From Actinostola sp. cb2023 (Eukaryota > Cnidaria > Anthozoa > Actiniaria > Actinostolidae): a DNA stretch of 64,000 nucleotides. Below the pieces are notes generated by a model. The model was not told where the DNA came from and did not search any database. It saw only the letters and a list, made by a program, of their open reading frames with translations. Positions within the stretch are counted from its first letter, which is position 1; every line of letters begins with the position of its first letter. Made by a program: the position numbers and the translations under genes. Shown here piece after piece: positions 1,920 to 42,817 of the stretch. Location of the stretch: assembly GCA_033675265.1 (NCBI GenBank), contig JAUJYZ010000266.1:62001-126000 (forward strand), written 5' to 3'.

Positions 1920-2381
1920 TTATCCCCTCAATTCATCTGATAGTACTGCTCCAACAATGCGATCCCTTATCAATGAATTCCTAAGTCCTCCAAATTCACA
2001 TGTTAGGGACAGTCTTTTCAGTTCACTCACAAAATTGTCAATCCTTTCTCCTTCCTTCTGATTTCGCTGATTGAACACTAAGCGCTCATAGATCACATTC
2101 CTAGCACCTTCACAGATTTCCTTGAATTTTGTACATACGTCAGCATAACACTCGTTGCTTTCTTCCTCGTTGAATACAAAATGACTATACTCTTCAATGG
2201 CATCCGGTCCTGCACAGTTAAGCAAGAGATTTACCTTGAATTTATCTCCTTTTTCATCTTTTCCTTTTGCCACAAGATAAATTTCAAATTGCATTAGAAA
2301 CTTCCTCCAATTTTCTGACGCTTGAGCATCCAGAACTAAGGGACCCGGAGTACGGTGTGTATTTATATCACTTTCGGCCAT
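1920..2381 (-). CDS. gag: gypsy gag (N-terminal, ends at in-frame TAA)
   Basis: This is a 153-residue reading frame starting at ATG 2381, just downstream of the primer site. It contains a retrotransposon gag core (ASENWRKFLMQFEIYLVAKG, later YERLVFNQRNQKEGERIDNF), the usual capsid-like fold region of gypsy elements. It stops at TAA (1922-1920), but the same frame resumes immediately with LLKKPHLTLQSCHDHC and continues to the zinc knuckle. The stop is therefore either one inactivating nonsense change or a readthrough site between Gag and Gag-Pol. The start was chosen because it is the first ATG after the primer site and gives a typical gypsy gag N-terminus. Confidence 0.85.
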   Translation of the reverse strand: MAESDINTHRTPGPLVLDAQASENWRKFLMQFEIYLVAKGKDEKGDKFKVNLLLNCAGPDAIEEYSHFVFNEEESNECYADVCTKFKEICEGARNVIYERLVFNQRNQKEGERIDNFVSELKRLSLTCEFGGLRNSLIRDRIVGAVLSDELRG

Positions 2382-2448
2382 GTTTTAACGACGCTTGTAT
2401 GGTTTCTGTTGATCCAATTGATCTCAAATAGCTCCACAATCTTTTAAC

Positions 2449-2464
2449 TTTACTTCTGACACCA
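2449..2464 (-). other. tRNA primer-binding site of gypsy element
   Basis: The minus strand reads TGGTGTCAGAAGTAAA directly next to the inner edge of the LTR. A TGG start abutting the LTR is the hallmark of a tRNA primer site; similar TGGTGTCAGAAG sites occur in mag-like gypsy elements. The exact tRNA is not determined. Confidence 0.75.
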
Positions 2465-2622
2465 TGTTGTAAGTCAGTCTTTTATTTAATAAGCTCTGTA
2501 AACCTAAACGTACTAAGTGTAAAACATGTGGTTTCTAGCTAACCGAAGAGAACAAGATGGCGGCCTCCCGTGAGGGGTGGCCCCGTACATAATCAAGGGG
2601 ACACAGGGATCCCAATCTAACA
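2465..2622 (-). repeat. 5' LTR of gypsy element (about 158 bp)
   Basis: The segment begins TGTTAGATTGG and ends CTTACAACA on the minus strand, so it has the TG...CA termini of an LTR, and it abuts the primer-binding site. It contains a TTATTT/AATAAA-type stretch on the element strand. Only one LTR lies in the window, so the boundaries rest on the TG/CA rule and the primer site. The adjoining AGAAT (2623-2627) is the likely target duplication. Confidence 0.7.
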
Positions 2623-2966
2623 AGAATATTATAACAAATACTACGGTCTAAAATGCAATCAAGCAATATGCACCAGAGGTTTCACCATGATAAAAGACGA
2701 TTTGGTCACAGCTAATGATCAGATTTTAAAATAGCCAAAACAAAATCAAAGTGCTTGCAAATGGAAATATTGATTAAACTTAAGCTTATATAGACTTTAA
2801 TTTAAATGAAAATTTGTAGCATTGGTTATATCTACAGTACTGACTGTTACTAACTGTTAGTAATAGTATTAAAACATGTCGATTATGCCTCTATCAAATA
2901 AACAATTCTCTGTAGTGAATAAAATTAACACAAACAACAGCAGAGAAATGTTACAAATTACTCGTA
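2623..2966. other. AT-rich spacer, nothing recognised
   Basis: No coding, RNA or repeat signal recognised in this AT-rich stretch between the LTR and the rearranged repeat. Confidence 0.5.
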
Positions 2967-3510
2967 CTCACCGGCTGATTTGCAAGCCAAACTGTGGAAA
3001 TATGCTCTCCGCGGATGTTCTAAAGTACTTTGAACAGTAATCTCTCTTCCTCATATTAAAATGGCATTGTTGTAAAAGATCCAAGCGTCTACAAAAGCCT
3101 TGAACAGTTCTCCAAATTACGCCTCTATCATTTACAATTCTCTGTAGTAAATACAATTGTATATGGAAAGCATTTTAATAAGCAAACATTCGTGCTATAC
3201 GCTGAACAAACAACAGCAGAGAAATTACAGTTTCCACAATAACGGTTTACAAATTATTCGATTCGATCAAGAGAAAATGAGGGACAGAGAGTGCATCTTG
3301 GGGGTCAAGCTGGGATATGTGAATCGTAGTTGGGCTATTTTTAGCATGCGGACGTAAAAGAAAACTTACTTCCGTTTCGGTTTGAGTGTCAACGTGGTCA
3401 TATGTTTTGACTGTTTTGTCGATGAAACCAATTCAAAAATGAAGCAAAATGGATTTTATTAAGCAGATACTTCGAAAAGGAAAGAGATATACTCAGATTA
3501 AAGTGACTCG
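2967..3510. repeat. Rearranged copy of the sequence at 8205-8580
   Basis: Positions 2967-3110 match 8449-8580 in the same orientation (both start CTCACCGGCTGATTTGCAA). Positions 3265-3505 match 8205-8440 in the opposite orientation (CAAGAGAAAATGAGGGAC and TTCGAAAAGGAAAGAG). One half is thus inverted relative to the other when the two copies are compared, as happens with 5' inversion during LINE insertion. The minus strand at 2967 carries a donor-like CCG|GTGAGTA. Confidence 0.7.
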
Positions 3511-3883
3511 CTGGGAGAAAATTCGAATTGAAAGACGACGGTTGTAATTTAATTCAGTAGGTATGTTTTCACTGGGACAATTTATTTGACAGATATCTGT
3601 CAGTTTATTTATGTAATCTCTCGTAGCACACAACAGACGTTCGTAAAGAACTATAGATTGCAGAGTTTTGAAGAAATTCCCATCGTTTTCGAAATAAATA
3701 CAGTTTATTTTTAACCCTCACCCTCCGCTGTTTGCCGCCTGAGCTTCTTTGAAATGGCTGTTGAAGTTCGGAGTGTTGTTGCTCGTTCGACATATGTTGT
3801 AAATCAGGTCAATCAGAGCCGTCGTCTTCGCTTTCAGTATCGGGCTCAAATTCATCGAAAGAATTCCAATTTTCTCCCAGCGA

Positions 3884-3890
<7 letters not shown>
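3505..3890. repeat. Small imperfect inverted repeat
   Basis: ACTCGCTGGGAGAAAATT at about 3508 is the reverse complement of AATTTTCTCCCAGCGAGT at about 3870. The match extends, with a deletion, to GACGACGG near 3543. The intervening sequence has no recognised gene. Confidence 0.55.
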
Positions 3891-3916
<26 letters not shown>

Positions 3917-4085
3917 TAACTTTATTTAAACACGGTGGACCCATCAGGATTTTACAAAGAAATATGATAAAATTGTAAATATCTATATATATAAACACTC
4001 TATCTATCTAATTATTATATATAAAAACTAATACTATAAATAAACAAAATAACCTGCTTTTCAGGAGTGCCGTGTATTTAGTGAA

Positions 4086-4476
4086 CTAGTTAAAAAATCG
4101 TTTACAGCCAGCACGAAAACTACTAAGGGTTTGTGCTTGCCGTAATTCGTTTGGGAGGCCATTCCAAAGAACAGCCTCATTATAGCTAAAGCTATTTTTT
4201 CGATAATTAGTGCGAGGAAATGGTATAGTAAGTTTGCACTCGGTGTCCCGCAATGAATAGCTTGTAACGCTGCTACGGTCTACAAATTTTGAGCGAAGGT
4301 AATCCGGAGCAAGACCATTAAGTGATTTATAGACCATAACAGCTTTTTGAATTTGGCGTTGGCAGTCCAGTTTTTTCCAACCGAGCAATTCAAATAGATC
4401 ATCGGCATTAGTGTCATAGCTGGAGAAAGTTAAAACCCGAGCCGCACGATTTTGTAGCTTTTGTAATTTAGAGGCC
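4086..4476 (-). pseudogene. LINE ORF2 C-terminus, resumed after insertion
   Basis: This continues the frame broken at 6035: SKLQKLQNRAARVLTFSSYD, then LLGWKKLDCQRQIQKAVMVY, and ends RAGCKRFFN before a stop at 4086. This C-terminal segment is standard in CR1/L2-like LINEs. It shows that 4477-6034 is a clean insertion into the LINE. Confidence 0.88.
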
Positions 4477-5006
4477 TGGGGCCGGTTGCATAAAACTTAC
4501 GAGTCTACTTAAGTGTACTCGTAATTTAAGACTGTTGCAAATAATGAGTTAATTGCTCACTTAAGAGTTTCACTTAAGTATTGGATCTTACGATTATCGT
4601 AAGTGACCACTTAAGTGCTGTTTATGCAACGAAATATACGGGTGTTGCACAAACGCTTTGCGCCCATTTCTTAAGTGCAGAAGTCGTCCGTGAATTTACG
4701 GGAGCCCTAGAGGTCCCGTAAAACTAAGTGCGTCATGGAAAATCTTACTTTCACTTTCAAATTTCCTTCAATATTTTTAATTTATAAACATATCATAGCC
4801 TGGTATTGTAAGTGTGTTTATTTGGACTAATTTGGAGATATATATTTTCAGGAAAAAGTATTATGCTTTTTAGCGCTATTTTGCAGCATGCATGTATGCA
4901 CATTTTAAGATTTGACAAGCAAATTTTGGCATTTATAGGTTTTATTTATCCTGCCGCTAGAATAGTTTAGATGGAGAACAGTCAGATGGCCATGAAGCCT
5001 TAGAAT

Positions 5007-5007
5007 C

Positions 5008-5050
<43 letters not shown>

Positions 5051-5414
5051 GTTACTCCCTTTGCCCAAGTGGTAGGGGTGATCGGCGCTCCTTTTAGGGT
5101 TCAAAATATTTCCTGTGTGTACCTTTTAGGGTTCCGACTCAAAAGTCAGTTACGTAACATGACTCCGTACCTTTTAGGGTCGATTGTTATTTAATTTCTT
5201 TAGAACCGCAGAAAAAAGATAATAATAATCATAATCATCATCATCATCATCATATATGGTCGTACCTTTTAGGGGTTGGAATTAACATGGCTCCAACATC
5301 TCTTTTAATTTATGCGTACCTTTTAGGGTCGTTTTCAAAATCAACCGCCGATCACCCCTACCACTTGGACAAAGGGAGTAACCCCCCCCCCCCCCCCCCC
5401 CTCCCCCCTCCGGG
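5007..5414. mobile_element. Poly(G)-ended hAT-like MITE with 8-bp duplication
   Basis: The insertion is flanked by the direct repeat CTTAGAAT (4999-5006 and 5415-5422). The left end is CCC followed by about 40 G; the right end is a C-run and CTCCGGG. Inside these runs lies an inverted repeat (GTTACTCCCTTTG / CAAAGGGAGTAAC, then GGTAGGGGTGATCGGCG and its complement). The centre has at least five scattered copies of TACCTTTTAGGGT. An 8-bp duplication is typical of hAT elements; the family is unknown to me. Confidence 0.75.
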
Positions 5415-5422
5415 CTTAGAAT

Positions 5423-5640
5423 CGACGAGTGAGCAGTTAAACTCAGAGCAAGATATTAGTTGGGAGGACAATGTGCCACAACAACCAAAGAAAGAAGAAA
5501 AGAAAAGTCCACAAGTGAGAGCAGGCGACACCACAATCATAAGTAATCTGTACGAACAACAAGTTTAGACAATCTTAAAAAAAAATAAAAAAGAGGAACA
5601 TGAGATTAAAATGCGAGTATTAAGAAAGAAATAACAATTG
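5423..5640 (+). pseudogene. Remnant of Harbinger Myb/SANT-like accessory protein
   Basis: The reading frame STSEQLNSEQDISWEDN, PQQPKKEEKKSPQ and DTTIISNLYEQQV ends at a stop at 5566-5568. After it, the sequence reads on as a Lys/Glu-rich helix (KKEEHEIKMRVLRKE). This acidic linker plus basic helix layout resembles the C-terminal part of MSANTD/Harbinger myb-like proteins, but the DNA-binding part is missing. This is an inference from composition, not from an alignment. Confidence 0.4.
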
Positions 5641-6034
5641 CTAGACCTACAAATTAAAATTGCAAAAGACGAACTCGCACAAATAACTGGATATATATAT
5701 AAATGTGCTCATTTTACTTTCCTTTATTTCATCAAGTAATCGTTTACATTTTTGTACAATCGATGTTATTCAGTTTTGAAAGTTTTTTGATTTATTGGCT
5801 TCTATAGGTTTTGTTAATTATACATTTTTGTAATCAAATTCTATGAGTTCTATGAATTAAAAATATTTATGCTTAGCCAAGCACTTAAGTGTCCCCGTAA
5901 ATTCACTCTTAAGTAATTCACTTACGAAAGTGTTCAGTAAGCTTCATGCAACACGCTTTAGGAAACCCGTAACACAATCTTAAGTGCCTCACTTAAGTGA
6001 ACACTTAAGTACAGATTTTATGCAACCGGCCCCA

Positions 6035-6655
6035 GGGTCTTACCACAATTTCCCCACACAACACTGCAGTAATCAAAATGTGGCTGGATCAGCGAAGTAA
6101 AGATAAGCTGCAGAGTTCTGTGAGGAACAAAAGGTCTAATACGTTTCAGGGCCCCGATACCAGAGGCAATTTTTTTAGATAATTTGTCGATATGTGCGTT
6201 CCAAGACAGACTTTCATCAATTAATACTCCAAGTGATTTCGTACTGGAGACTTGTTTGATAGAAGCTCCATTAATTGTTAATGACGGGACAGTCTCAACA
6301 GTCATTAACCTTTGCCTTGACCCTATTAACATGAATTCTGTCTTAGACGTATTTAAAGTAAGCTTGTTTGCGTTAAGCCACTCTTTGACATTGACCAAAT
6401 CTTGATTTAGAAAATGGTTAATGCTATCAACATTATCAGATGCGAAAGTTAGATGAGTATCATCTGCATACATACGAGGCTGACAATGGGAAATACAGTT
6501 TGGGAGATCGTTGATGTAAAGGATGAACAGCAAAGGTCCCAGGATGGTCCCCTGAGGAATGCCACATGATAGTGAACAGTTATCTGACAAATAGCCATTC
6601 ACTAAGCATTTTTGATTGCGTTCACTCAGATAGGAATTGAACCAGTCATTATAGA
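6035..6655 (-). pseudogene. LINE reverse transcriptase, palm 2 and thumb
   Basis: This contains [20 protein letters not shown] and [17 protein letters not shown] is the RT catalytic box that binds metal and dNTP. The thumb follows, with [17 protein letters not shown] and [12 protein letters not shown]. The frame is cut at 6035 by the TIR insertion exactly within CGNCGKTL, and the remainder of the protein resumes at 4476 in the same frame. Confidence 0.9.
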
Positions 6656-7755
6656 GATACCCCCAATGCCATACTCGTATAATTTCGACAAAAGAATGAC
6701 ATGGTCCACCGTATCGAAAGCTTTTTTGAGATCTAAGAAAACTACGGCGTTTATTTCACCCTTGTCAATGTTAACAGCCCAATTGTCAGTAGCCTCGAGT
6801 AATGCAGTGACAGTAGAGTGAAGGTGTCGAAACCCTGACTGGTGACTAGAAAGTAGGTTATTATCAGTTAAATACGTGAAGACCTGATCGTAAACTATTC
6901 TTTCAAACACTTTCGCCACTACCGGGATAATTGAGATTGGGCGGTAGTTATTCAGATCGTCACGTTTCCCCTGTTTGAATAGTGGAATAACTTTAGAACA
7001 CTTCCAGTCATCTGGGAAAATGCCTGTGACAATAGAGCGATTGAAAATGGAACAAAGAGAGTAAGCAATCAGGTCAGCACATTCACAAAGTAGCCTGGCA
7101 GAGATTGAATCCAGGCCAGTTGCTTTAGATTTGCTTAGTTTAGATACTAATGAATAAACTGTAGTTATATTGGTTTGTTTTAGCTCGAATAAATTTGCAT
7201 TGTTGGAAATAAAATCAAGATATTCTAAATGTGAGCGGCTTTCATCGGGTATTGCACTAGCTAACCTAGGCCCAACACTAGCGAAGTGTTCATTAAAGGC
7301 CTCAGCTAGCTTTTGTGCATCAACAATGGAGTTACCGTTATTGTTTATCTCTTTTATATTCGAGCTTTTCAATTTTCTTGCAGAGAGCTCATTAGCGATC
7401 CTCCAAGTCGCTCTTGAGTTCCCTGCATTGTCATGAAAAGCCTTCTTGTAATACGATTCTTTTGCATTTTTTATTTCGGTATTCACAGAATTGCGGCATT
7501 TCTTGTAATTTAGCCAATCCGCAGGAGTATTTGAACAAGAAGCTTTTAATTTCAAGACATCTCTTTCATGCATGTGTTGTTTTAGCTGAGATGTAATCCA
7601 GGGTGATTTGGCAACACGAACACGTTTTGTGCGTATGGGAGCATGCTTATCAACGACCTTATAAAAAATAGTTTTCCAAGCACACCACATACTGTTCGGA
7701 TCATCATGTAGATTTATACTGCCCCAATTCTGTGAACAAATGTCATCACGAAAGT
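6626..7755 (-). pseudogene. LINE reverse transcriptase, fingers and palm 1
   Basis: The segment shows the linker after the endonuclease (DKHAPIRTKRVRVAKSPWIT), then SKATGLDSISARLL, VIPLFKQGKRDDLNNYRPIS and [13 protein letters not shown]. The last carries the first catalytic Asp of RT. The frame breaks near 6655 in the YGIGGIS region; the next frame carries on with [13 protein letters not shown] and the second half of RT. The break is a single-base shift, so the copy is recent enough to align but not functional. Confidence 0.88.
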
Positions 7756-8172
7756 TTGTGAGTTAAAGTGTATAAACTTTCTATATGTCACCGTAGAATG
7801 ACCCTTGTTAGGTAGACCAATATAAATTTTTCGATAGACGTAAACAAGACTATGATCACTAATGCCGACGTGCGAGACACCGGAGCAAACCACCCGATCC
7901 GGACAATTAGTAAATATTAAATCAATCAAAGTTGACGAGGTTTCGGTAACTCGCGTTGGTTTGTTTATGAATTGATGTAAACTGTAGAGATCAGTTATGC
8001 TGGTCAGCCGACGTGAATTATTATCCAGCTGCGTTGCAGCTAAATTACAATTCAAGTCACCAGCTATGTAAAATTCAATACCTTCGGCATCAAGCCTGCC
8101 AACGAGGGTTTCAAATGAACTAAATTTGTCAATAGATGAATCCGGTGGCCTATACCATGTTGCAATGACAAA
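7714..8172 (-). pseudogene. LINE apurinic-like endonuclease, C-terminal half
   Basis: The frame contains VIATWYRPPDSS, FYIAGDLNCNL (the GDxN catalytic motif), LIDLIFTN and GISDHSLVYV (the SDH motif). These are the later motifs of an exonuclease/endonuclease/phosphatase domain that nicks target DNA to prime reverse transcription. The first half (the N and E motifs) is absent, replaced upstream by the sequence shared with 2967-3510. The frame ends at 7714. A one-base shift near 7755 would connect it to the RT frame, where the protein reads on through INLHDDPNSMWCAWKTIF. Confidence 0.85.
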
Positions 8173-8205
8173 AGGCTTCGATCGTGGCTTACTTAATCTG
8201 AGTAT

Positions 8206-8741
8206 ATCTCTTTCCTTTTCGAAGTATCTGCTTAATAAAAACCATTTTCCTTCATATTTTTTAATTGATTTCATCGACAAAACAGTCAAAACATATGACC
8301 ACGTTGACACTCAAACCGAAACCGAAGTAAGTTTTCTTTTACGCCCGCATGCTAAAAATAGCCCAACTACGATTCACATATCCCAAGGCCATGACTGGCA
8401 GATTCACTCTATGTCCCTCATTTTCTCTTGATTCGATAGACTCGGTACTCACCGGCTGATTTGCAAACCAACTGTATAAATATGCTCTCCACGGATGCTC
8501 TAAAGTACTTTGAATAGCATTCTCTCATAATGGAATTGTTTGTAAAGATCCAAGCGTCTACAAAAGCCTTAAAACTCCAAAAGATATCGATGCGAATCCT
8601 CCATGAAAGTCGTTGGGTTGAAAATGGCGGGCTGTACGTACATCGCTGAGCATGATGGGTAATGGGAGGTTTCAAGGAATTCTGGGATTTTATTTGTAAC
8701 CCAGGTCCCCTCTCTTTGGATATACAGAAATTAGCGCGCAA
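8206..8741 (-). repeat. Exon-like sequence upstream of LINE, second copy
   Basis: The minus-strand frame ends with EYRVYRIKRK. It includes a segment (YSKYFRASVESIF) shared with the copy at 2967-3156, immediately followed by a good 5' splice-site sequence, CCG|GTGAGTACC (near 8450). It could be a captured host exon or the 5' leader of the LINE family. Function unknown. Confidence 0.45.
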
Positions 8742-8813
8742 AACAGCTCATGCTGGTTTTCTTTCTATCTTTCTTTGGATTTTTATGAATGTTTGAATTC
8801 ATTAGGTTGTTTT

Positions 8814-8908
8814 AGGGGGGGGGGGGGGGGGGGATTAATTGTTTAAGAAATATTAGGTATGTGCAGCGGAATTACTCACTCAAAACCCTGGATTTACGAA
8901 TTCCCCCT

Positions 8909-8936
<28 letters not shown>
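8814..8936. repeat. Poly(G) and poly(C) runs 80 bp apart
   Basis: A G-run of about 20 (from 8814) and a C-run of about 20 followed by an A-run (about 8904-8936) are arranged as inverted ends. They recall the poly(G)-ended element at 5007-5414 but have no obvious matching inner arms or target duplication. Confidence 0.4.
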
Positions 8937-8940
<4 letters not shown>

Positions 8941-8984
8941 CTCCAACACCTTTACGTCGGTTCTATTTTGGATTTGAATTGGAC

Positions 8985-9480
8985 TGTTTGGTTGTATTGT
9001 TTTGATGGTCATTTTGGATATGGCAAAGACCATTTTGGGTTTTGTATATGGGGTCATTTTGGATATGGCAAAGACCATTTTGGGTTTGTATATGGGGTCA
9101 TTTTGGATATGGCAAAGACCATTCAGTTTGGGTTTTGTATGGGGTCATTTTGGATATAGCAAAGACCATTTTGGGTTTTGTATGGGGTCATTTTGGATAT
9201 GGCAAAGACCATTTTGGGTTTTCTATATGGGGTCATTTTGGATCAGTGGCAAAGACCATTTTGGGTTTTGTATATGGGGTCATTTTGGATATGGCAAAGA
9301 CCATTTTGGGTTTTGTATGGGGTCATTTTTGATATGGCAAAGACCATTTTGGTTTGACAGGGCCATTGTAGGTTTGTATGGGCCATTTTGGGTTTGCATG
9401 GGGCCGTTTTGGGTTTATATGGGGCCATTTTAGGTTTACATGGGGCCATTTTGACTCTTGTTTCCAAAACAGTCCCTGTA
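8985..9480. repeat. Minisatellite, about 45-bp then about 20-bp units
   Basis: Eight or so copies of a 41-49 bp unit built on GGATATGGCAAAGACCATTT and GGGTTTTGTATATGGGGTCA run from 9005 to about 9350. They grade into shorter units built on GGTTTGCATGGGGCCATTTT up to about 9460. Reading frames through the array are by-products of the repeat. Confidence 0.85.
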
Positions 9481-10525
9481 GGGGCCAAATCAGCCCCATA
9501 GGTAAAGGGGCTGTTTTGGATTTTGGGGCTGAAACAGACAGGTCTATCGAATTTACAGTGTATAAACTGATTCAGATGTTAGCATTGTAGGTTACAGTGC
9601 AATCCCTGTGACTGTATGTGTCAAGGCCGATCGGTAATTGAAATAAAATATTGCGGGAAAGCGTGATCGGATGTATGCACAGTCAAATAAACTTACCTTG
9701 TCCTTCGGAAGGCAAGTTAGATTTTACATGGTTGCCATATATTTTAACATTCATCAGGGATCCTAAATATCTGGAACTTAGAATACGTATACAGTAGTCC
9801 TAAATGATTCCACGTACTTTTGTTGGATAGGCATTTATATCTTTAATTGGAGAGAATTTCTGAAAAAACTCCCTTGCTATCGATAATCGCTACATTTTGG
9901 CGGGAAAGATGGCGACGATTCTTTATTATTATTAAGATCGCCGAACGAGTTAGCTACACGGAGCTGGAGCTCTTGGTCGTTAACACATGATCGAGGTTTT
10001 AGGGTTTCTGCCTAAGAATCCCAGCCAGGACATGCAATAGCTACACATAAACACTCGATGATCTATTTGCGCGCCATTTACATCATGCAAGCGAAATTGT
10101 CTTGATCAGTCGCAGAGGAAAACAGACAGCAAATTAAACGTACGTAGATCTTTGAATATTTAGTTGATTGCCCACAAATTCTTCTGTCCAGTTCCTACCA
10201 GCCTTTGTTCGAATCATACCCTGTTTAGTGACGGTCGCATCGATCTACACGGCTCAGTTACTTTATTTGAAACTTCAAAATCGCTCTCGCTTGTCAAAAC
10301 TCATTTGATGAGAGTACACAGAAATTTATTGCTACGGAAATAAGGCAAACAACTTAATTGGTCTTTGAAAGACACTGTTGACATATAGTAATTCGATCAT
10401 AGCAACCGTACTACCCCATCGTGACCATTAGAACTTGGCTCTGGCTCCCTATGTGTGGATGTGATTGCATTACGCGCGATTTGCTACTCTAAAAACTCAT
10501 ATTTTTTGTAGGTGTGTTATTAATA
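9481..10525. other. No gene or repeat recognised
   Basis: Apart from a short GGGGCC-rich tail of the minisatellite (9480-9530), I see no feature here. Unidentified upstream exons or the promoter of the gene at 13179 could lie here, but no exon could be supported. Confidence 0.4.
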
Positions 10526-10669
10526 GGAAATACCACTTAGTTCTCGAATAATTAATAAAAAATACCACTTGTATTTGATGAAAATGGCTGAATATTAAGC
10601 CACTTTTATTAAATACGCGTGCTATTTTTCATTAATTATTCGAGAACTGTGGTATTTCCTATACAAAGT
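10526..10669. mobile_element. 144-bp MITE with TA duplication
   Basis: The inverted ends GGAAATACCAC...AGTTCTCGAATAATTAAT and complement are flanked by TA on both sides (10524-10525 and 10670-10671). The whole element is nearly palindromic. A TA duplication fits the Tc1/mariner superfamily. Confidence 0.7.
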
Positions 10670-11056
10670 CAGTAAATTATGCTGATGACAACAGCCTGGT
10701 GCATAGCGTTACATGTACTGCTGACTTACGTGAAATACTGGGAATTGAAAAAAAAAATAGAAAGCAAAAAATAGTCATGAATCCATGATATGAGAGGGTC
10801 CTGTGCGGCGGCCCGGAGAGCCGGGTTCTGGGTACTTAGCCTGGGCTGAGCCGAGCAACTCCTATTCCCCCTCTACTGCACATGATGGTCGTCATGTTTT
10901 ACCACCATATGGGAGTAGATAATGACAGTAGACTCATGGACGTTGTCAGCTGATTGAAACTCAGCATTTCAATTATATTCAAAAGTTGCTGGATCGCATA
11001 CAGGCATTGTTGTGTTTCAAAATGGCCGCGATGAACGGACCTTTGTTTGAATTTAA

Positions 11057-12900
11057 GAGAGGATATCTGTAAAGATCGAGATTCGCCGGTCAACTAAAAA
11101 AAATCGAATTTAATTTTCTTTCGCCATATCATTCCTTTCGATGACCTATTTTAGGGAAAAATACTAAAAAGTTCCAGCGATTTTTATTTTAGGAGAAATT
11201 TCCAGTTCTTAAAAACTCGCCTGATGAGTGAAAAATTTCGGATAAATTATAAGGCAAAGTTGAACAGTCGGTGTGTGTTCATCTCTAGCACTACGACAAC
11301 GACATTCAGCATACTTAATAAACTTTTCGTGGTCTTTTCTACTGTAGTATTTATTTTTGTGTAACTTTTGTAGTTATGTTTCAAATTTGGTTTTAAAAAG
11401 GTGTACTGAGCGCCATGAACGGAACGCTGAAATATAGGCAATGTTTGAGGTACGAAAACGGAAACTGGTACCTAATGCTTTGAGGAAAACGCCATGCCCC
11501 AGGAAAGCTTCACCTTTGCTCTTTCAGTCTAGAAAGTTTCAACTTTGAGAATTCAATATAGCATGTTTGAGAAATAAAAATATTATGCTTGGGACTGCCA
11601 AAATTAGCATTAATTTCGGCCTTTCGAGGACATTTTTGTCGTTAAAAAACACAAAATTTAATGCCAAAACACGACTATCTAGCTTGCACTGTTAGTTGAT
11701 CGCTGCCAACATATAACAATCTTGGAGTTAATAGGAATGATTTTCAACAATATTTGAGCTATATAATAGTGAAAATTAGCATATTCAGTGGTCAAATAAA
11801 CACCGTAGTATTGGCCGTTTCCGAAAATTATGGTTTTTCACTTTGAAATGCTTAGAATTTGCTCCAAATAAGATTTACAAACAATTAAGCTGATTTATAC
11901 TTAAAACTGGCGCTTATTCATGAAGAATTTGGATATTTTGACTGGATGCTCCACTTTGTTGACAAGCCAATTATGTAACGCAATGTAACTGCTGGAAGTC
12001 ACGCTACTGCGCTTCGAATAATTTTTTTGCGGCATGAAATAATAATTTTAATCATAAAATATAAAACAAAACAGAATTCATACTTGCTTGAAAGGGTGGA
12101 ATTTCGTATAAATGTCGTTTAGACAAAATTCGTAAATTTTTCTGTGAGATGCTGTTATCTGATCGACAATCTATGCTAATTTTAACTTTTGCGAGTTATT
12201 TACGACTCATTCTTGAAAAGCATTCCTATTGACTCGAATATTGTTTTCCATCAGCAGAAATCAACTAAAAGTGAAAGATAGTCGTGTTTTGGCATTAAGT
12301 TTTGTGTTTTAACGACAAAAATGTCCTCGAAAGGCCGAAATTAATGCTAATTTTGGCAGTCCCAAGCATAATATTTTTATTTCTCAAACATGCTATATTG
12401 AATTCTCAAAGTTGACATTTTCTAAACTGAAAGAGCAAAGGTGAAGCGTTCCTGGGGCGTGGCGTTTTCCTCAAAGAATTAGGTACCAGATTCCGTTTTC
12501 GTACCTCAAACATTGCCTATATTTCAACGTTCCGTTCATGGCGCTCAGTACACCTTTTTATAACCAAATTTGAAATATAATTACACAAGTTACAGAACAA
12601 TAAATTACACAGTAGAAAAGACCAAGAAACGTTTATTAAGTATGCTGAATTTCGTTGTTGTAGTGCTAGAGATGAACACACACCGACTGTTCAAATATGC
12701 CTTATAATTTAGCGGAAAAAAATTTCAGTCATCAGGCGGGTTTTTGAAAACTGGAAATTTCTCCTAAAATAAAAATCTCTGGAACTTTTTAGTATTTTTC
12801 CCTAAAATAAGTCATCGAAAGTAATGATATGGCGAAAGAAAATTAAATTCGATTTTTTTTTAGTTGACCGGCGAATCTCGAACTTTACAGATATCCTCTC
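11057..12900. mobile_element. 1.84-kb TTAA-flanked long-hairpin element
   Basis: Arms of roughly 640-730 bp (about 11057-11790 and 12175-12900) are inverted copies with few mismatches. The ends are GAGAGGATATCTGTAAAG and complement. TTAA lies at both borders (11053-11056, 12901-12904). The loop (about 11790-12175) has no recognised gene. TTAA duplication is used by piggyBac and Kolobok transposons. No transposase is present, so it is a non-autonomous element. It lies upstream of, or in an upstream intron of, the SEA gene. Confidence 0.75.
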
Positions 12901-13002
12901 TTAAAGTGTTGTGCCGACTACTTGTTTTTACATCCAAAGTAATGTCCCATGTTTGCTATTTTGATACGATCGATAAGTAAAAAAAATATGCTTTACATAT
13001 AT

Positions 13003-13178
13003 ACTTCTCAGATCATCAAGCTACTGTACCCTGTGGTTATAAAACCTGTGGTATAACAACTGAACAATATTTATATATATTTTATATACTTCTCAGATCA
13101 CCAAGCTACTGTACCATGTGGTAAAACCTGTGGTATAACAACTGAACAGTGTTTATATATATTTTATATACTTCTCAG
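13003..13178 (+). repeat. Tandem copies of an exon's 3' splice site
   Basis: Three copies of an 82-85 bp unit each contain TATATACTTCTCAG followed by the first about 60 nt of exon 1 (ATCACCAAGCTACTGTACC and onward). The three AG sites are at 13010-13011, 13095-13096 and 13177-13178. Only the third leads into an uninterrupted coding exon. Use of the first two would shift frame and reach TAA within about 30 codons. Confidence 0.8.
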
Positions 13179-13418
13179 ATCACCAATCTACTGTACCATG
13201 TGGTAAAACCTGTGGTATAACAACTGAACAATGTTTATCAGTAACTCCTGATGGAAATCCTTTCCCAAGAGTGAGTTGTCGCCAACAGGAAATTGTCCAA
13301 GTCACACGTCAGGACAAGACATATAAAATGTGTGGCAAAAAGGAGAAAACAAAAAGTACCTGTGATGTTTCTAATGGTATTGGAAGTTGCAGCTTCAAAC
13401 TTGAAGTCCATCCAAAGA
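13179..13418 (+). CDS. Exon 1 of SEA gene: Cys-rich extracellular
   Basis: The acceptor is CTTCTCAG|AT and the donor AAAGA|GTAAGC; the exon is phase 1 at both ends. It encodes 79 residues with seven cysteines (VPCGKTCGITTEQC, VSCRQQE, KMCGKKEK, STCDVSN, GSCSF). I do not recognise the domain. Symmetric phase-1 borders are usual for shuffled extracellular modules. Confidence 0.8.
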
Positions 13419-16400
13419 GTAAGCTCTCCGTATTATATGTTTTACATTTCAGATCTGAACAGAATAAACTAGAACGAGAATGTTCACATCATATTAAGCA
13501 GAACAGTAGGGATGAAATGAGTCCGATGGACCTCTTCGTAGTTTCCCCCAATGCTTTATGATTATGTGCGCGCAAGCGAGGTCAGGGAAAAAAATATATT
13601 TGGAATTGATCGTGTATTGAGGAAAATATGACTACTGTATCTAATCAAGAACAGGAAAAAACTATTTTCTTTGCTTGTTTTGTTCGGTGGATGACGTCAT
13701 ATCCGTTGTACGCCAAATGTTAATGTTCCGTTCTTAAATAAATACACGTATTGCCAACAGACCGTCACATATATTTCCCGATCCACCTTGTCGACAGGCA
13801 GTAGAGTACTAATTAATATATGTGTTGCAGTCCATGAGAAGGATTGGTATGGTTCGATAAGAATAATCAATCGTAACTGGGATGAACTACTGAGAGATGA
13901 AAACTCTGAAAAATCCAAGACTTTGAAAGCTGAGATTGAAAAGATGGTGCGTACGAAATTTGTTCTAGTGGGCTAAATTGGAAACCAGTATTGTTGTATT
14001 GTAAACCCACTTATCATAAAGAAATATTATTAATATTATCATTATACCGCTGATGAAAAGATGGTGTGTACGTGTGATTGTTAACTTTTTCTACGGCTGA
14101 TGAAATCCTGCAAGCATCCCAAAGTGATAACTATATAGTGTTTGTTTTCTTACAGATGGACATCGCTTATGAATGCGAACTATATGTGACATCAAAGAAA
14201 GTACTGAGCTTCAAGTAAGTATTGTTGAACTATTGCTAGTTTTTCCGTTAATGATTAGCCTACATGTAGCTCCCCTTTCTCCCCTTTGAGTGGTTTGGAA
14301 TAGCCGCATTGTTTAGTATGAAGCGGATAGGAATTTGGAGACTACAAATGTAGCCTGATTTGCAGACGGTCAGCGGTCCTCCACTAAACTACACTAAACT
14401 CCACACCCCCTTTAGTTGATGAAGTACGTTTGTTGGTGATATGAGCCGCCCATAGCTATCAATTTATTTTAAAAGGTAACAGTGTTATCACTTCAGTACC
14501 TCTCTCTCTTGTTGCTCAGTGTTGTTTATGTATTTGGTGTCTCTTGTTTAGAAAAGGAAGCGTTGTTGTATATTACCAACTGGCAATCATCGGAGACGTC
14601 CTTGATCCATCTTTACCATTGAAAGAGGCACTGAACAGTAGTGGAGGAACACTGAACATATTCAAGATAGATCAGAGTAGCATACGAGGTTTGTAGTCTA
14701 ATTAGACTAACTTATAAATTATATATCAGAATAAGTGACGATAGATATTGGTAGCATACAAGCAGGTTTGTAGTACTAACTTATATATCAGAATAAGTGA
14801 CGATAGATGTTGGTAGCATACAAGCAGGTTTGTAGTACTAACCTATATATCAGAATAAGTGACGATATATGTTGGTTGCATACAAGCAGATTTGTAGTCA
14901 TACTAACTTATATATCAGAATAAGTGACGATAGATAATAATAATAATAATAATAATAATAATTCTTGAAAAAGTGCATTACATATAAATCTCAATGCTCT
15001 TTACTACAAGTAAATAAGAAAATATAAAAAATAAAGCAGGTTTGTAGTACTAACTTATATATCAGAATAAGTGACGATATATGTTGGTAGCATACAAGCA
15101 GGTTTGTAGTACTAACTTATATACAGCAATTTCAAAAAATGTTGAAAACTGAATATTGCATACTGAATAGTGCATTCCTAGTGCGGGCCTCGTTATTTTG
15201 AAATAAAAAGTAAATATACAGCGATTTGTTCGCCATATGGAGCTAGTATATTGTTTCTGATGGAATACACACACACAAAAAAAAATATATATTATTTATA
15301 TTACTTTAGACAATATAACACAAGTCCCATAATGCATTTCGGTCTTGGAATACACTATATTCAGTATCAACGTTTTTTGAAATTGCTGTATCAGAATAAG
15401 TGATGATATATGTTGGTAGCATACAAGCAGGTTTGTAGTCATACTAACTTATATATCAGAATAAGTGACGATATAGATGTTGGTAGCATACAAGCAGGTT
15501 TGTAGTACTAACTTATATCTCAGAATAAGTGACGATAGATGTTGGTAGCATACAAGCAGGTTTGTAGTACTAACTTATATCTCAGAATAAGTGACGATAG
15601 ATGTTGGTAGCATACAAGCAGGTTTGTAGTCATACTAACTTATATCTCAGAATAAGTGACGATAGATGTTGGTAGCATACAAGCAGGTTTGTAGTACTAA
15701 CTTATATATCAGAATAAGTGACGATAGATGTTGGTAGCATACAAGCAGGTTTGTAGTACTAACTTATATCTCAGAATAAGTGACGATAGATGTTGGTAGC
15801 ATACAAGCAGGTTTGTAGTACTAACTTATATATCAGAATAAGTGACGATAGATGTTGGTAGCATACAAACAGGTTTGTAGTATTAACTTATCTATCAGAA
15901 TAAGTGACGATAGATGTTGGTAGCATACAAGCAGGTTTGTAGTACTAACTTATATCTCAGAATAAGTGACGATAGATGTTGGTAGCATACAAGCAGGTTT
16001 GTAGTACTAACTTATCTATCAGAATAAGTGACGATAGATGTTGGTAGCATACAAGCAGGTTTGTAGTCATACTAACTTATATCTCAGAATAAGTGACGAT
16101 AGATGTTGGTAGCATACAAGCAGGTTTGTAGTACTAACTTATATATCAGAATAAGTGACGATAGATGTTGGTAGCATACAAACAGGTTTGTAGTACTAAC
16201 TTATTTATCAGAATAAGTGACGATATATGTTGGTAGCATACAAGCAGGTTTGTAGTACTAACTTATATCTCAGAATAAGTGACGATAGATGTTGGTAGCA
16301 TACAAGCAGGTTTGTAGTACTAACTTATATATCAGAATAAGTGACGATAGATATTGGTAGCATACAAGCAGGTTTGTAGTCATACTAACTTATATATCAG

Positions 16401-19400
16401 AATAAGTGACGATAGATGTTGGTAGCATACAAGCAGGTTTGTAGTCATACTAACTTATATCTCAGATTAAGTGACGATAGATGTTGGTAGCATACAAGCA
16501 GGTTTGTAGTACTAACTTATATATCAGAATAAGTGACGATAGATGTTAGTAGCATACAAGCAGGTTTGTAGTCATACTAACTTATATCACAGAATAAGTG
16601 ACGATAGATGTTGGTAGCATACAAGCAGGTTTGTAGTACTAACTTATATATCAGAATAAGTGACGATAGATGTTGGTAGCATACAAGCAGGTTTGTAGTC
16701 ATATACTTATATCTCAGAATAAGTGACGATAGATGTTGGTAGCATACAAGCAGTTTGTAGTACATAACTTATATATCAGAATAAGTGACGATAGATGTTG
16801 GTAGCATACAAGCAGGTTTGTAGTCATACTAACTTATATCTCAGAATAAGTGACGATAGATGTTGGTAGCATACAAGCAGGTTTGTAGTCATACTAACTT
16901 ATATATCAGAATAAGTGACGATAGATGTTGGTAGCATACAAGCAGGTTTGTAGTCATACTAACTTATATCTCAGATTAAGTGACGATAGATGTTGGTAGC
17001 ATACAAGCAGGTTTGTAGTACTAACTTATATACTAACTTATAGTAGCATACAACCAGGTTTGTAGTCATAATAAGTGACGATAGATTTTGGTAGCATACA
17101 AGCAGGTTTGTAGTACTAACTTATATATCAGAATAAGTGACGATAGATGTTGGTAGCATACAAGCAGGTTTGTAGTACTAACTTATATATCAGAATAAGT
17201 GACGATAGATGTTGGTAGCATACAAGCAGGTTTGTAGTCATATACTTATATCTCAGAATAAGTGACGATAGATTTTGGTAGCATACAAGCAGGTTTGTAG
17301 TACTAACTTATATATCAGAATAAGTGACGATAGATGTTGGTAGCATACAAGCAGGTTTGTAGTACTAACTTATATATCAGAATAAGTGACGATAGATGTT
17401 GGTAGCATACAAGCAGGTTTGTAGTACTAACTTATATATCAGAATAAGTGACGATAGATGTTGGTAGCATACAAGCAGGTTTGTAGTCATACTAACTTAT
17501 ATCTCAGAATAAGTGACGATAGATGTTGGTAGCATACAAGCAGGTTTGTAGTACTAACTTATATATCAGAATAAGTGACGATAGATATTGGTAGCATACA
17601 AGCAGGTTTGTAGTCATACTAACTTATATCTCAGAATAAGTGACGATAGATGTTGGTAGCATACAAGCAGGTTTGTAGTCATACTAAACTTATATATCAG
17701 AATAAGTGACGATAGATGTTGGTAGCATACAAGCAGGTTTGTAGTCATACTAACTTATATCTCAGATTAAGTGACGATAAATGTTGGTAGCATACAAGCA
17801 GGTTTGTAGTACTAACTTATATATCAGAATAAGTGACGATAGATGTTAGTAGCATACAACCAGGTTTGTAGTCATACTAACTTATATCACAGAATAAGTG
17901 ACGATAGATTTTGGTAGCATACAAGCAGGTTTTTGTAGTACTAACTTATATATCAGAATAAGTGACGATAGATGTTGGTAGCATACAAGCAGGTTTGTAG
18001 TACTAACTTATATATCAGAATAAGTGACGATAGATGTTGGTAGCATACAAGCAGGTTTGTAGTCATATACTTATATCTCAGAATAAGTGACGATAGATGT
18101 TGGTAGCATACAAGCAGGTTTGTAGTACTAACTTATCTATCAGAATAAGTGACGATAGATGTTGGTAGCATACAAGCAGGTTTGTAGTACTAACTTATAT
18201 ATCAGAATAAGTGACGATAGATGTTGGTAGCATACAAGCAGGTTTGTAGTCATACTAACTTATATCTCAGAATAAGTGACGATAGATGTTGGTAGCATAC
18301 AAGCAGGTTTGTAGTCATACTAACTTATATATCAGAATAAGTGACGATAGATGTTGGTAGCATACAAGCAGGTTTGTAGTACTAACTTATATATCAGAAT
18401 AAGTGACGATAGATGTTGGTAGCATACAAGCAGGTTTGTAGTCATACTAACTTATATCTCAGAATAATTGACGATAGATGTTGGTAGCATACAAGCAGGT
18501 TTGTAGTACTAACTTATATATCAGAATAAGTGACGATAGATGTTGGTAGCATACAAGCAGGTTTGTAGTACTAACTTATATATCAGAATAAGTGACGCTG
18601 GATCTCCCATTTTAATGGCCGATAACTTGAAAAATATATCGAATATAATATATTTATTCCTTCCCTGCTGACAGAGTCTCCTTTTCTCCCGAGGAAGAGA
18701 AGAGCAAGAAAAAAATACTTTCTTCCTCTTCTCTTCCTCGGGAGAAAAGGCATAAAAAAAAGGCAAGAACAAAATACTTTCTTCCTCTTCTCTTCCTCGG
18801 TAGAAAAGGAGACTTTGTCACTCGGCAGGGAAATTTATTCCATACATATGCTCCCTAGTATTCTTAATCTTCAAAATGTATAGTAAAACCTTTATTGGAT
18901 TTTATTTTGTTGGCTTTTTAACACAAACCTTGGTGTCGATAATTGACGCTACTGATCATGCCAAATCTCATCCAATAACAAGACGCTCAATGAGCGTACA
19001 CTCGCGCAATATGACAAGGACAATGTCAGTTGAATGACGAGGGACCTGACAATGACTGACAGTTGCGTGACGAGGGAAACTGTTAAATTTAAAGTACGTA
19101 CTGCAGACACAAATAGTCTCCCTCGTCACGCAACTGACATTGTCATAATGCCCGACTACGCTCATTGAGCGTCTTCTTCTGTAATAGATCCCTAAAATCT
19201 AAGGACGTTTTGATTTCGATATTGTATTTTTGCCGTTCACTGACCTGTTTTGAGCGTGGAAATTCTGCTTTAAATAGCGCTGCGCGGCGGTCCTAAAATT
19301 AGGTCGCGTAATAGATGTATGACTCACACAATGATCATGCAACTGTAATCGTTCTAAAAAGAACACGGAGAAACCTACATTTTATCATGTTTGTCCGCGT

Positions 19401-22400
19401 GAAAAACACTGGCCTATTTCTCCGATGATATATTCGTGTAGCTAGGTTCCTCTGTTGTACTGTATGTACAGACTTATTGACATATAAACCTATCCATTAT
19501 CTGCTGTGTCTAATGTACTGTCAAGTATGGTGTAACTTTAGCGTATTTATCGCGAAGAAAAAGAGATAATTTGAACTAGCGAGTAACTATAGTATGGGCT
19601 TTAATCTTTAATCACAGCGTGTGTGACATATGTGAGAGGAGCGTTTCTTTCCTTCAAGTTGGATATATAAAAGTGTTACGTTCGACTGAGTTAAACCCGA
19701 ATTTCGTACATTGAACTTGCTTCGGGTCCGTGGCGTTGATGACGGCCTATTTGCTTTGATGAAGTTTTTTACGATTCCTTAATTTCCTTCTGAATGTTTC
19801 AAACGTGGAATAAAATAAACTTCAATCATTATACTTCTCAGAAATGTGTTTCATTTTACTAGTCGGATACCATTTAAACGGGTTTTTGAAACCACGGAGT
19901 GACGGCTCTCAGAAACTGAATGTGTTTCATTTTATTGTCGGACTGAATTGGTCAAACGTGGAATAAAATAAACTTTAGTCGGAAAATATTTGACCCGTTT
20001 GAACATATAATTACTTCATTAGGCGTTTGGATATCATCGCCCCCGTTTTCAGCCAATCGAAACCCTAAAACAGACATTCCTGACCGATACGATCACATAC
20101 TTCGCATTCTGTGTACTACCAAAAAATATATATATATAGAAGAAAGTCAATTTTATAACTCGGGCTTCCTTCGGAAGGCCCGAGTAATTAGTCGGGCTTC
20201 CTGTGGAAGCTCCGACTCTAAAAATGAGATCCGTTCTTTGTCGTTGACCTCAAATCGCAAACTGGGTTCTACAGCGCATGCGCCCTGTGCCGGCCGCTAA
20301 GATAATCACCGAAGGCTCTAACAACATGATTTATCAATACGAGACATCGAGTCTGAATTCACAAACCTTGTTGCAGGAAGGTTATGTCGTCTTGTTTTCA
20401 AAATAACCACAATAATTCATATAGATATGGATGTATCAATCCAGTACTAGTACTGCAAAGGGTTTAGAGATCTTTAGAACTTAGAACGAATCGAAGTGAG
20501 TTGATACACGCAGTGAAGGGTTTCAGCCAACCGAGCCGTCGAGGTGAACCCATATTTACACTTCATCCAAACATTGTTTAATCACTCTGCGATGTCTAGT
20601 TTATGTATACGGTATTGGTATTTATATGGATATATTTATGGTAACAAATAAACTATATCATTGTCATTCATGATTCGCTGAGTTTGTGAAATCGCAGTAC
20701 TGAAATTGCCAGGAAAGCATGTTCTACCGAGCTCGAGTCACACAACGAGCAACCAAACACTGTGTTAATCACACTATAAGATATCTATATTTAGTTCAAA
20801 TAGGCTACATTTCAGTTAGAAGCCCGACTTCACGCTAGTAGAGCGTCTAGTTGAATAATATACGAGTGTTTTTATTTCAGGTTCGTATGGGCCACGAAAG
20901 ACGGATGGGGGCTCAAAACCATTGAACTATAAGGTCATCATCGCTATTAGTGTGTGTGTTCCTATTGTACTTATCATCATCATAGTCTTGGTTGTTTGCT
21001 GCTACAAGAAGAATAAAGAAAAACAAGGCGATAGTAGGAATTGTGAGTATCAGTAGAAGTCATTTATCAAACTCGAAAAAAGTGTTCTTAAAATTCCCCT
21101 GATTTCGAAACAAACCAAGAATTGGGTTAAAAAAAAGTGCAGTTTTAAATACCCGTAAGATGGAGCACTGATGGAGGAAGGGGGTAAAAGGGCGCACCGT
21201 CTGCCTCCTGGGAGAACAGTTTCGACTGAAGGGGTTAAGGACGTTAAATATGGCCTTACGTTTACTTAGGTACAGAAGCAAAGCCCTAAATCACAAAGTA
21301 TTCTTGGTTTACATGACGTCATCAAAACGCTAAAATCTAAAATATGCGTCGTACAAAACTGTTTGTTTGATATTTTGTTTATATCCACAACAAGTCTTCA
21401 CAAAAAAATATGTGTACTTTCGATGTTTGGTTTTTGATTTATTGAGAGTCAATTTCTGTCACGCAACACTGTCACGTGTATTCTAAAGCCAGAGAATTAG
21501 GGAAATTTGCTTCAAATGTTACGTGTTTTACCTCGTAAATGATATGTAAGTTTGATGTCATTTTAAAATATCTCTATTGAAAAACTGAGTTGTTTGCAAT
21601 TATTAAAGTGATTTTGATCCTCGGTGTTTTGGCCGCCATGTTGGTGTACTACGGTTGTACACCAAGATGGCGGCCCCATACATTCACACTAAATAATGCG
21701 CACATTTGTATCGCTCATATCTCGGCATTGAAAGCTTCTTATCAAAATTTGGTTGAGATACATGAGTTTGACTGCTCTCTGTTGTAAGACCTTTTGTTCA
21801 ATTATACTCGATATAAGACCCAGAAAATTTTACGATGACGTAAGTGCAAACCAACAATACCAAATCCTGTAACTGTTTCCTTTTCGTAGACTGGTAAATT
21901 TTCATGATAAGAATAAGGGCAAAGGGCACTGTAACTGGGATTCAAATCGCCAGCATGTCATCACAGTGCATGCTCTATTTTGTCATCGCTGAGTTTACCA
22001 TTTGACTCAGTCGTGCTATTATATTGTGCCATATTTGCAGTCTTTTAATAATATCTAATAACATTAATATATCTGATATTTAATGTATGTTCTGTGCGTT
22101 TATATCTTTTAGATGCGTTGGATTATGATAACGAAGGCTATGCCGACAGGTAAGTTACATTTAACATTTAGTACCCTGCACAAATGATGTGTTCAATATA
22201 ATCGACATTCAATCAAATCAGGTTTTAATGATTTTACTTGTTGGCACAGGAGTGCTCAGTTATCTGTCATTTCTGAAGGTCGTACCGTTGTTTTCTTTTG
22301 TAATGATTATTTTTTTTACATAAAGCAAGTTGACCTTACTTCTTAAAATATGGGACCGTGTTCAAAAGCGAGCAATAATTTACAATTACTGTAAAGGCTT

Positions 22401-25384: not shown

Positions 25385-26915
25385 CTCAATGCTACACTTT
25401 ATAGTAAACATATTTTAGATTCCAACACCTACACTTTATAGTAAACATATTTTAGATACCAACACCTACACTAGCCTCCTCCGCAGGCAAACCCATTGGG
25501 ATCCCTTTTGCTTTTTGGGATTTTTGGGATCCCTGTGCGAGGCCGGAGGCCGAGAGGGACTTGGTCCCCAGTAAGAAGAGAAGGGTTTGCCTGCCAAAAC
25601 TGAACACCTTTTTCGGGGCCCGCTCATGTTTCTCGCGCATACCAATATTTACGCTCCGGGGGTGGTTGGGGTTTTCGTACATACACAGCAAACAAACATT
25701 TGTTTTTTCGGGGAGAGACGACGCGGGATTATATTGTCGTGTAAAAAGACGCCATAGAGTTGGCGGCTCAAATCTCACAAATGAATCAAGATCCCATCTC
25801 TATCAATTTCAAAGTAATTGGCGGTGGCCTAGAAGTGATCTTCCGAGTAAATTCCTCTCTCGAAGTCGAAGCCTCGATGAAAACGGTTATCGTATTTTTG
25901 AAAGTTGGATTGTCGTTCGACACCGGACACCGTCAGTGAGAGCGAATAAATATCTTCAAGAGTACAAAGTACTTTAAATAAAGAATAGTAAAAGAGAAAT
26001 GTTTAGAGAAAAGGTTCTGGAGGCAGAGAATTTAGAAGTTAGCTTCTCCAATCGGCTTTTAGAACATGACCAACAGTATAAGTGACTTGACCTTTGATGT
26101 GACGGTTTGACTGTAAACAAAGCATAGAAAGGTTTAATCATTCATCGCACGTCAAACGTTTCAGGTCGATTTATATAATACCACATTAACCTTTCGTTTT
26201 TGTTCTTCCTGGTGTACCCCGTATTGTAGCTCTTACTTCTCCAGCAGCAGGATCAAGGACCTAATACTCACTAACGTGAGCATCAGTAATTTTATTCGTC
26301 CTCGCCGCCTTCTTCTAGCTCTTCGAAATCGCCTACAAGCTTCTTGAATACCGCCTTCTTCTCCTCGATTTCAATTTTCGTATTTTTAACATTTTTAAGC
26401 AGATCTTTATACGCTTTGCTTTCAAATAACTGGATCGTTTGTTTTCACATACCGTGTGCGCTGTGATCTTCACCCCACGCCATTACTTTTCACGTGAAAC
26501 ATTTCCCCAGGGTCTGGGAAATGGTTTTATTGGATAGCCAAATATTCCCCAGGGGACCCCGGGTCCCGTTACAAGTCCACAAGGGTGACATTACAAGTCC
26601 ATGGTGCTCCGGTTTTGGCAGGCAACTCGTCCTTTTCTTTTCCCCCTCCCCTCGTCTCCAGTCTCCCTCTGCCCAGCGCCACAGGAAACCCATCTGATAG
26701 AGTTTTAGTATTTTAGAGTTGCCTACGGAGGAGGCTACACCTACACTTCATAGTAAACATATTTTTGATACCAACACCTACACTTTATAGTAAACATATT
26801 TTAGATATCAACATCTACACTTTATAGTAAACATATTTTATATACGTCCAACACCTACACTTTATAATAAACATATTTTAGATACCAACACCTACACTTT
26901 ATAGTAAACATATCA
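25385..26915. repeat. 37-bp tandem repeat split by an insertion
   Basis: Units built on CCAACACCTACACTTTATAG and TAAACATATTTTAGATA occur about 2.5 times before 25471 and about five times after 26738. The intervening 1.27 kb is the TIR element at 25472-26737. Confidence 0.85.
25472..26737. mobile_element. 1.27-kb TAGCCTCC element, member 1
   Basis: The inverted ends are TAGCCTCCTCCGCAGGCAA and complement (one mismatch). Both sides carry CACCTACAC (25463-25471, 26738-26746), although the host is a tandem repeat, so the duplication length (8 or 9) is uncertain. The interior has two weak coding-like stretches: plus strand about 25770-25940, and a minus-strand acidic coiled-coil-like tail ending at 26292 (KKLVGDFEELEEGGEDE). 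No transposase recognised. Confidence 0.75.

Positions 26916-41740: not shown

Positions 41741-42817
<1,077 letters not shown>

Follow-up and report, generated by a model that had tools for sequence, protein, structure and literature searches.

A minisatellite-like array of exon-end and donor copies at the exon 4 junction of a SEA-domain gene family, its splice signals probably passengers

The window analysed here, meaning the whole stretch of 64,000 nt (C288:62001-126000), encodes a single-pass membrane protein with a SEA domain according to the gene model and the Pfam match (SEA, E 1.6e-7). The assembly searched comprised 424 Mb in 1594 contigs, and relatives of the gene are named below by contig number. 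Protein searches found no homologues outside this genome, and the matches to two solved structures, with E 0.67 and 0.75, were not significant. The exons and repeats that the following text needs are these:

12998..13238, plus strand: second junction array, on the acceptor side, 82 nt x 2.9, made of the acceptor AG and the first ~60 nt of the next exon (Tandem Repeats Finder)
13179..13418, plus strand: first exon of the model read here, with its acceptor triplicated (gene model)
14552..14688, plus strand: exon 4, protein end FKIDQSSIR(G), whose last 23 nt (14666-14688) are part of the first array unit (gene model, Pfam SEA, unit homology)
14666..14739, plus strand: junction unit, consisting of the exon end, the authentic donor GAG|GTTTGT and 51 nt of intron, with GACTAAC and not TACTAAC (unit homology, unit count)
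14740..18597, plus strand: array with units of 62/65 nt, CAG|GTTTGTAG being present in nearly all and TACTAAC and TATATMTCAG in most (Tandem Repeats Finder, motif counts)
14936..15033, no strand assigned: retroposon-like insert that interrupts the array, made of (ATA)n and an A-rich piece (sequence read by eye)
15124..15388, no strand assigned: second insert within the array, a short element of the inverted-repeat type flanked by TA at either end (read by eye; its ends match each other inverted)
20881..21042, plus strand: exon 5, with a linker and the transmembrane segment (gene model)

The repeat runs from the last 23 nt of exon 4 to 18597, and 56 unit starts, mostly 62 or 65 nt apart and including the junction unit, were counted, in agreement with an earlier note on this DNA that had put the copies of the exon 4 end and its donor at about 55-60. 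Tandem Repeats Finder reported three pieces (14715-14935, 15389-17032 and 17066-18597) with period 62 and 93-94% matches, and a period of 127 was also found for the two long ones. The exact string CAGGTTTGTAG occurs 53 times in the array and nowhere else on the plus strand of the window, CAG|GTTTGTAG likewise has 53 copies in the array, and TACTAAC occurs 50 times there vs 4 times elsewhere on the same strand. The branch motif is followed by TATATATCAG in 30 copies and by TATATCTCAG in 18; the AG lies ~12 nt after the branch A, which is short for animals. Minisatellites in general are frequent in the window and in the family loci read.

The same note had described every unit as a mini-cassette with a perfect TACTAAC. 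The cassette itself is real, since 44 complete examples of TACTAAC / AG / 36 nt / CAG|GT were found, 43 of them with identical spacing, but neither this number nor the 50 branch motifs reaches the 56 unit starts, and in the junction unit the motif is GACTAAC. Its observation that the 36-nt piece has stops in all three frames was confirmed on the consensus, and its expectation that inclusion would truncate the protein agrees with the predicted reading SSIRE-stop; the predicted extension of exon 4 reads SSIRGL-stop, and both would stop before the transmembrane exon.

The exon 4 end matches the unit at 18 of its last 23 nt, a score reached by 2 of 8515 sampled positions of the window and tied, never exceeded, by the best of 2000 shuffled units. 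The homology extends into the first intron bases with the register unchanged, so that the array units hold both the exon-end and the intron sequence of one boundary together with AG/GT splice signals (the 53 copies of CAGGTTTGTAG), and the authentic donor lies inside the array, in the junction unit. When the units were sorted into types, 55 pieces fell into 29 types and blocks of types recurred, which is a sign of block duplication. RNA structure of the array was considered as a separate signal and dropped, as the z score of -3.1 against plain shuffles was only -2.0 (12/300) against a tandem null.

A protein search of the assembly gave 45 family matches at E 0.001 or better, 20 of which are exon 4; all 20 junctions were read, and the counts are lower bounds. 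Among these at least 20 exon 4 loci, the window included, 13 carry a homologous array at the same junction, two carry a separately founded one and five carry none. The 62-nt array is found in eight loci, with approximate unit numbers of 57 in C288 (the window), 71 in C466, 25 in C343, 78 in C81, 110 in C672, 79 in C1484, 20 in C181 and 3 in C498, and exon 4 immediately precedes it in each. A 66-nt array, ACGATAGATCCCAGTAGTATACAAGCAG|GTTTGTAGTCTTAGACTAACTGTATATCAGAATGAGTT, is found in five loci (C86, C1389, two in C693, and C1054) whose exon 4 protein is 57-61% identical to that of the window; 53 columns of its unit are identical to the 62-nt unit. Both arrays sit at the same donor and in register with the exon end in all 13 loci. 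Among the matches listed, those to the 62-nt unit (of 517) fall in eight contigs, window included, and those to either unit are confined to this gene family. The separately founded unit, of 62-64 nt, lies at the same donor in C1391 (13.0 units), where it starts at intron base 1, and in C550 (2.0 units), where it starts one base before. No array was seen at the junction in the stretch read of C795, C173, C482, C177 and C1533; repeats do occur further into the intron in two of them, of 8 nt in C482 and of 11 nt in C1533. Two of the loci with the 62-nt array show damage in coding sequence, with frames that are broken in C498 and exon 5 interrupted by two stops in C466.

The loci that lack an array give the direction of the copying. 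In C795 the unit core occurs once, as ACAAGCAG|GTTTGTAGTACTAAC; its exon 4 junction reads GATAGATCAGAGTAGCATACAAGCAG|GTTTGTAGTACTAACTTATA once (exon end core ACAAGCAG|GTTTGTAGTACTAACTTATA) and then passes into unique sequence, in an intron of ~245 nt. The exon 4 end of C482, GATAGATCCCAGTAGCATACAAGCAG|GTTTGTAGTC, also occurs once. Since CAAGCAG|GT is thus present unrepeated in C795 and C482, the array unit copies an older junction and not the present exon end of the window, where the form is now CGAG|GT, as it is in six other 62-nt loci; C181 keeps the old form. Conversion of the C181 exon by its own array was considered and dropped, because the arrayless C795 has the same exon end. In the two 66-nt loci compared (C1389 and C86), exon end and unit match at 27 of 28 nt. 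At the protein level, 19 of the 20 loci have I[DE]x[SR]S[IV] at the exon end, 11 of them as IDxSSI; the distant C177, which lacks an array, is among the 19, and C1533 is the only exception. On these sequence comparisons the founding of the array at the exon 4 junction is supported, and the claim that it grew from the end of exon 4 stands as to place, given the single junctions in the stretch read of C795, C482 and C173 and the exon-end homology in 13 loci, but needs correction as to the form that was copied.

A short direct repeat is present as TGACGATAGATC in the exon of C81, C466 and C343 and as TGACG[AC]T[AG]GATC just after the array in these three and C288; the founding break may lie in it, and a partial unit could look alike. 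In a tree of exons 2-4, C181, which has the array, and C795, which has none, are joined with a support of 92 (57 with exon 4 alone), and should this pairing be right, at least one loss or gain of the array must have taken place there. The right edges of the 62- and 66-nt arrays differ, and the two may have had one origin with losses or two origins at the same breakpoints.

Unit number ranges from about 3 to 110 among the relatives in this genome. In C81, C466 and C343 exon 4 is identical and the sequence is 98.1-98.7% alike over 11-16 kb aligned outside the arrays, and these near-identical copies, which may be recent duplicates or alleles that the assembly has not merged, differ in unit number (~78, 71 and 25). 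Therefore, the length of the array changes fast.

The donors of the array are strong by the measure of U1 pairing, at -9.1 kcal/mol vs -7.7 for the authentic donor in the window, and 53 sites in the 3.9 kb of the array reach -9.1 kcal/mol vs 14 in the other 60 kb on the plus strand. The authentic donors of C181 and of the five 66-nt loci, at -9.1 to -9.6 kcal/mol, roughly match those of the array in strength, and in C1391 the donor copies are weak (-3.7), whereas another U1 site in its unit is strong (-10.8). Counted by kinds of change in the window, donor positions show 3 in 9 sites vs 32 in 53 (p 0.47); counted by cells, which are not independent, they show 1/500 vs 59/2925 (p 0.0014). Over the eight loci, donor variation is 1.7% vs 2.9% overall, the 5th lowest of 62 nine-base stretches. 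Donor positions are thus of low variance and not uniquely constrained. In none of the five 66-nt arrays did the ~1 kb read contain TACTAAC; GACTAAC takes its place there. Neither the window nor its relatives show clear evidence that the splice signals are under selection. Signal constraint, present at the level of cells and not distinctive by site, was not used as support for function. The identical unit consensus in 7/7 loci with more than three units was likewise dropped, because, even in the absence of selection, a consensus taken over many units should remain unchanged.

Several known systems resemble this array in part. In the IFI6 (interferon-induced 6-16) minisatellite, the repeat units reportedly act as alternative donors, and the downstream donors are said to be really used (Turri, 1995), a point of difference from the present array. 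The IFI6 unit is 12 bp long.

Close to the present array are the mirages of lancelets, in which exon-intron boundaries occur as tandem copies and the arrays are unstable in length; the data on them are reported to suggest that regular splicing is not interfered with, and the authors note that the copies might act as cryptic sites (PMC3087553). The genes named there are Adh3, the globins Gb6 and Gb9, PGBD5 and troponin C (PMC3087553, PMC3902484), the PGBD5 mirage being added and troponin C named in the second of these (PMC3902484). As in the window, minisatellite-like copies run across the boundary, with AG/GT in many units and length variation; the lancelet arrays are described on the donor or the acceptor side and with lengths that differ between haplotypes (PMC3087553, PMC3902484). 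Unit number reaches up to ~110 here vs 3 and 6 given for Gb6 and 2 to 7 for PGBD5, and, as a further difference, the array lies at one donor in 13 of 20 family members and was separately founded in two more. The human ABCA7 intron 18 VNTR also starts at a donor and has a donor in each unit, and can add one unit to the transcript; for this disease locus RNA data are given, and use of the next unit's donor leads to an out-of-frame transcript (PMC5954066). It differs in that its 25-bp unit is described from GT, and the available text describes no exon part and no branch-point/acceptor cassette (PMC5954066). The C1391 array, which starts at intron base 1, is like that VNTR as it is described. Introns gained when AGGT or a boundary segment is tandemly duplicated (PMC4974935) and dual-specific sites (PMC10809524) are alike in that duplicated AG|GT units could form both intron ends; unlike in those cases, no sign was seen here that a unit became an exon or a new intron. 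A limited literature search found no earlier report of mirages shared across a gene family.

Our preferred explanation, to which we give a probability of roughly 0.85, is that the array is a boundary minisatellite founded by tandem duplication at the exon 4/intron 4 junction, with splice signals as passengers and with splicing tolerated. In an ancestor of the gene, a stretch straddling this boundary would have been tandemly duplicated while the boundary read CAAGCAG|GTTTGTAG, perhaps by means of a short direct repeat, and further unit and block duplication would have enlarged the array. The splice signals in the units would then be passengers of the founding segment. Exon definition is the principle behind the use of the donor adjoining an exon, and by it the spliceosome would keep using the donor next to exon 4, so that the array would be tolerated and splicing largely undisturbed, with at most a low-level extension by one unit as in ABCA7. 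The basis for this is the tandem structure, the exon homology, the single junctions in relatives, the differences in unit number and the repeated blocks of unit types. Against it, the exon end in 7 of the 8 62-nt loci differs from its own array by a 3-nt change and several substitutions, and for a minisatellite the array is long-lived, since relatives with no more than 57-61% protein identity in exon 4 have it too, and minisatellites are normally short-lived.

Three other explanations were weighed. In one, the intron already held an unrelated satellite, and exon 4 grew into the first of its units at a later time. This would account for the resemblance of exon end and unit, and minisatellites are frequent in the window and the loci read, but a like exon end is present in the arrayless C795, C482 and C173 and in the separately founded C1391 and C550, and the encoded I[DE]x[SR]S[IV] reaches even the arrayless C177; the single junctions contradict this order of events, which we consider highly improbable. 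Equally improbable, in our judgement, is that the array is a string of U1 sites, which according to a general idea can protect long introns from premature polyadenylation or tether RNA. The 53 strong U1 sites in 3.9 kb would suit such a string, but intron 4 of C795, at only ~245 nt, needs no such help, and the donor copies of C1391 are weak, though its unit has the other strong site. The third, in line with the decoy splice sites of the earlier note, is a maintained splicing device in which decoy donors or mini-exons retain intron 4 or make exon 4 part of a transcript that stops short of the membrane segment, with a secreted SEA ectodomain or NMD as the outcome. For it speak the 53 array donors that outdo the authentic one at U1 pairing with so few equals elsewhere, the 44 full cassettes, the predicted stops before the transmembrane exon in both products of misuse, the homologous array in 13 of 20 loci, and the intron retention that decoy exons bring about in human genes (PMC8706089). 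Against it, the donor positions are not uniquely conserved, the 66-nt arrays read have GACTAAC in place of TACTAAC, the AG follows the branch A at a distance that is short for animals, unit number varies from 3 to 110, the authentic donor roughly equals the array's in C181 and the five 66-nt loci, and published mirages reportedly leave splicing normal (PMC3087553, PMC3902484). We therefore regard such a device as unlikely, and the decoy idea has not gained ground. Also quite unlikely is a more specific version, in which the exon 4 donor keeps a permanent bank of spare donors, unit number sets the share of transcript that stops short of the membrane segment and so tunes membrane vs secreted SEA protein, and the family, as it evolved, has retained the array or, in one branch, exchanged it for a different one. 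These comparisons lend no support to a splicing role, though one may exist, and the array looks like an old, restless junction minisatellite, not a designed splicing switch.

As far as its sequence can tell, the array is an unusually large, family-wide, boundary-spanning minisatellite, the new part of which would be the presence across the family and the separate reseeding at one donor. Since one splice donor has a boundary array in 15 of 20 gene copies, in two of them with a separately founded unit, the arrays must either be maintained by something or arise anew from the boundary itself, the junction then being a hot spot for reseeding. The presence of the array at this donor across the family is worth following.

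The same gene has the second junction array, on the acceptor side. By a rough hand count of Tandem Repeats Finder arrays, two junction arrays in one gene were not a significant local excess. The second array presents three AGs, at 13011, 13096 and 13178.

A second boundary array was found in the SEA-domain gene, on the acceptor side, and stops are reached from both upstream AGs of this array in the window. When counted by the acceptor motif in the stretches read, its copies numbered five in each of the contigs C672 and C1484, four in C498, three in both C181 and the window, and one in both C466 and C81, and the motif count in the C343 stretch was zero.

Boundary array and arrays near exon 4 in relatives of the gene (L, stretch read around the exon 4 junction)
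Window 12998-13238: acceptor-side boundary array, 82 nt x 2.9, three AGs
C1391, L051 1655-2487: separately founded 62-64-nt array at the exon 4 donor, 13.0 copies
C550, L054, reverse strand: separately founded 62-64-nt array at the exon 4 donor, 2.0 copies
C482, L057 271-581: 8-nt array (AGGCAAGC) in the intron after exon 4, 38.8 copies
C1533, L064 254-814: 11-nt array (GAATTTCCAAT) in the intron after exon 4, 51 copies

The first base of the separately founded array in C1391 is intron base 1. Among the matches listed, the 66-nt array of C1389 holds an internal block in inverted orientation (G000:C1389:117645-118054).

The window also contains the following features.

Other features of the window
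11052-12905: fold-back element, about 700 nt per arm, 91% similarity between the arms
25392-25472 and 26737-26913: two arrays sharing one 37-nt unit, about 1.3 kb between them
41744-42686: (CTGC)n run, 943 nt, 99% matches
61803-63809, minus strand: LINE-type reverse transcriptase ORF

The reverse transcriptase ORF shows 77% identity to the nearest protein among the matches listed, and more than one frame is open in the (CTGC)n run.
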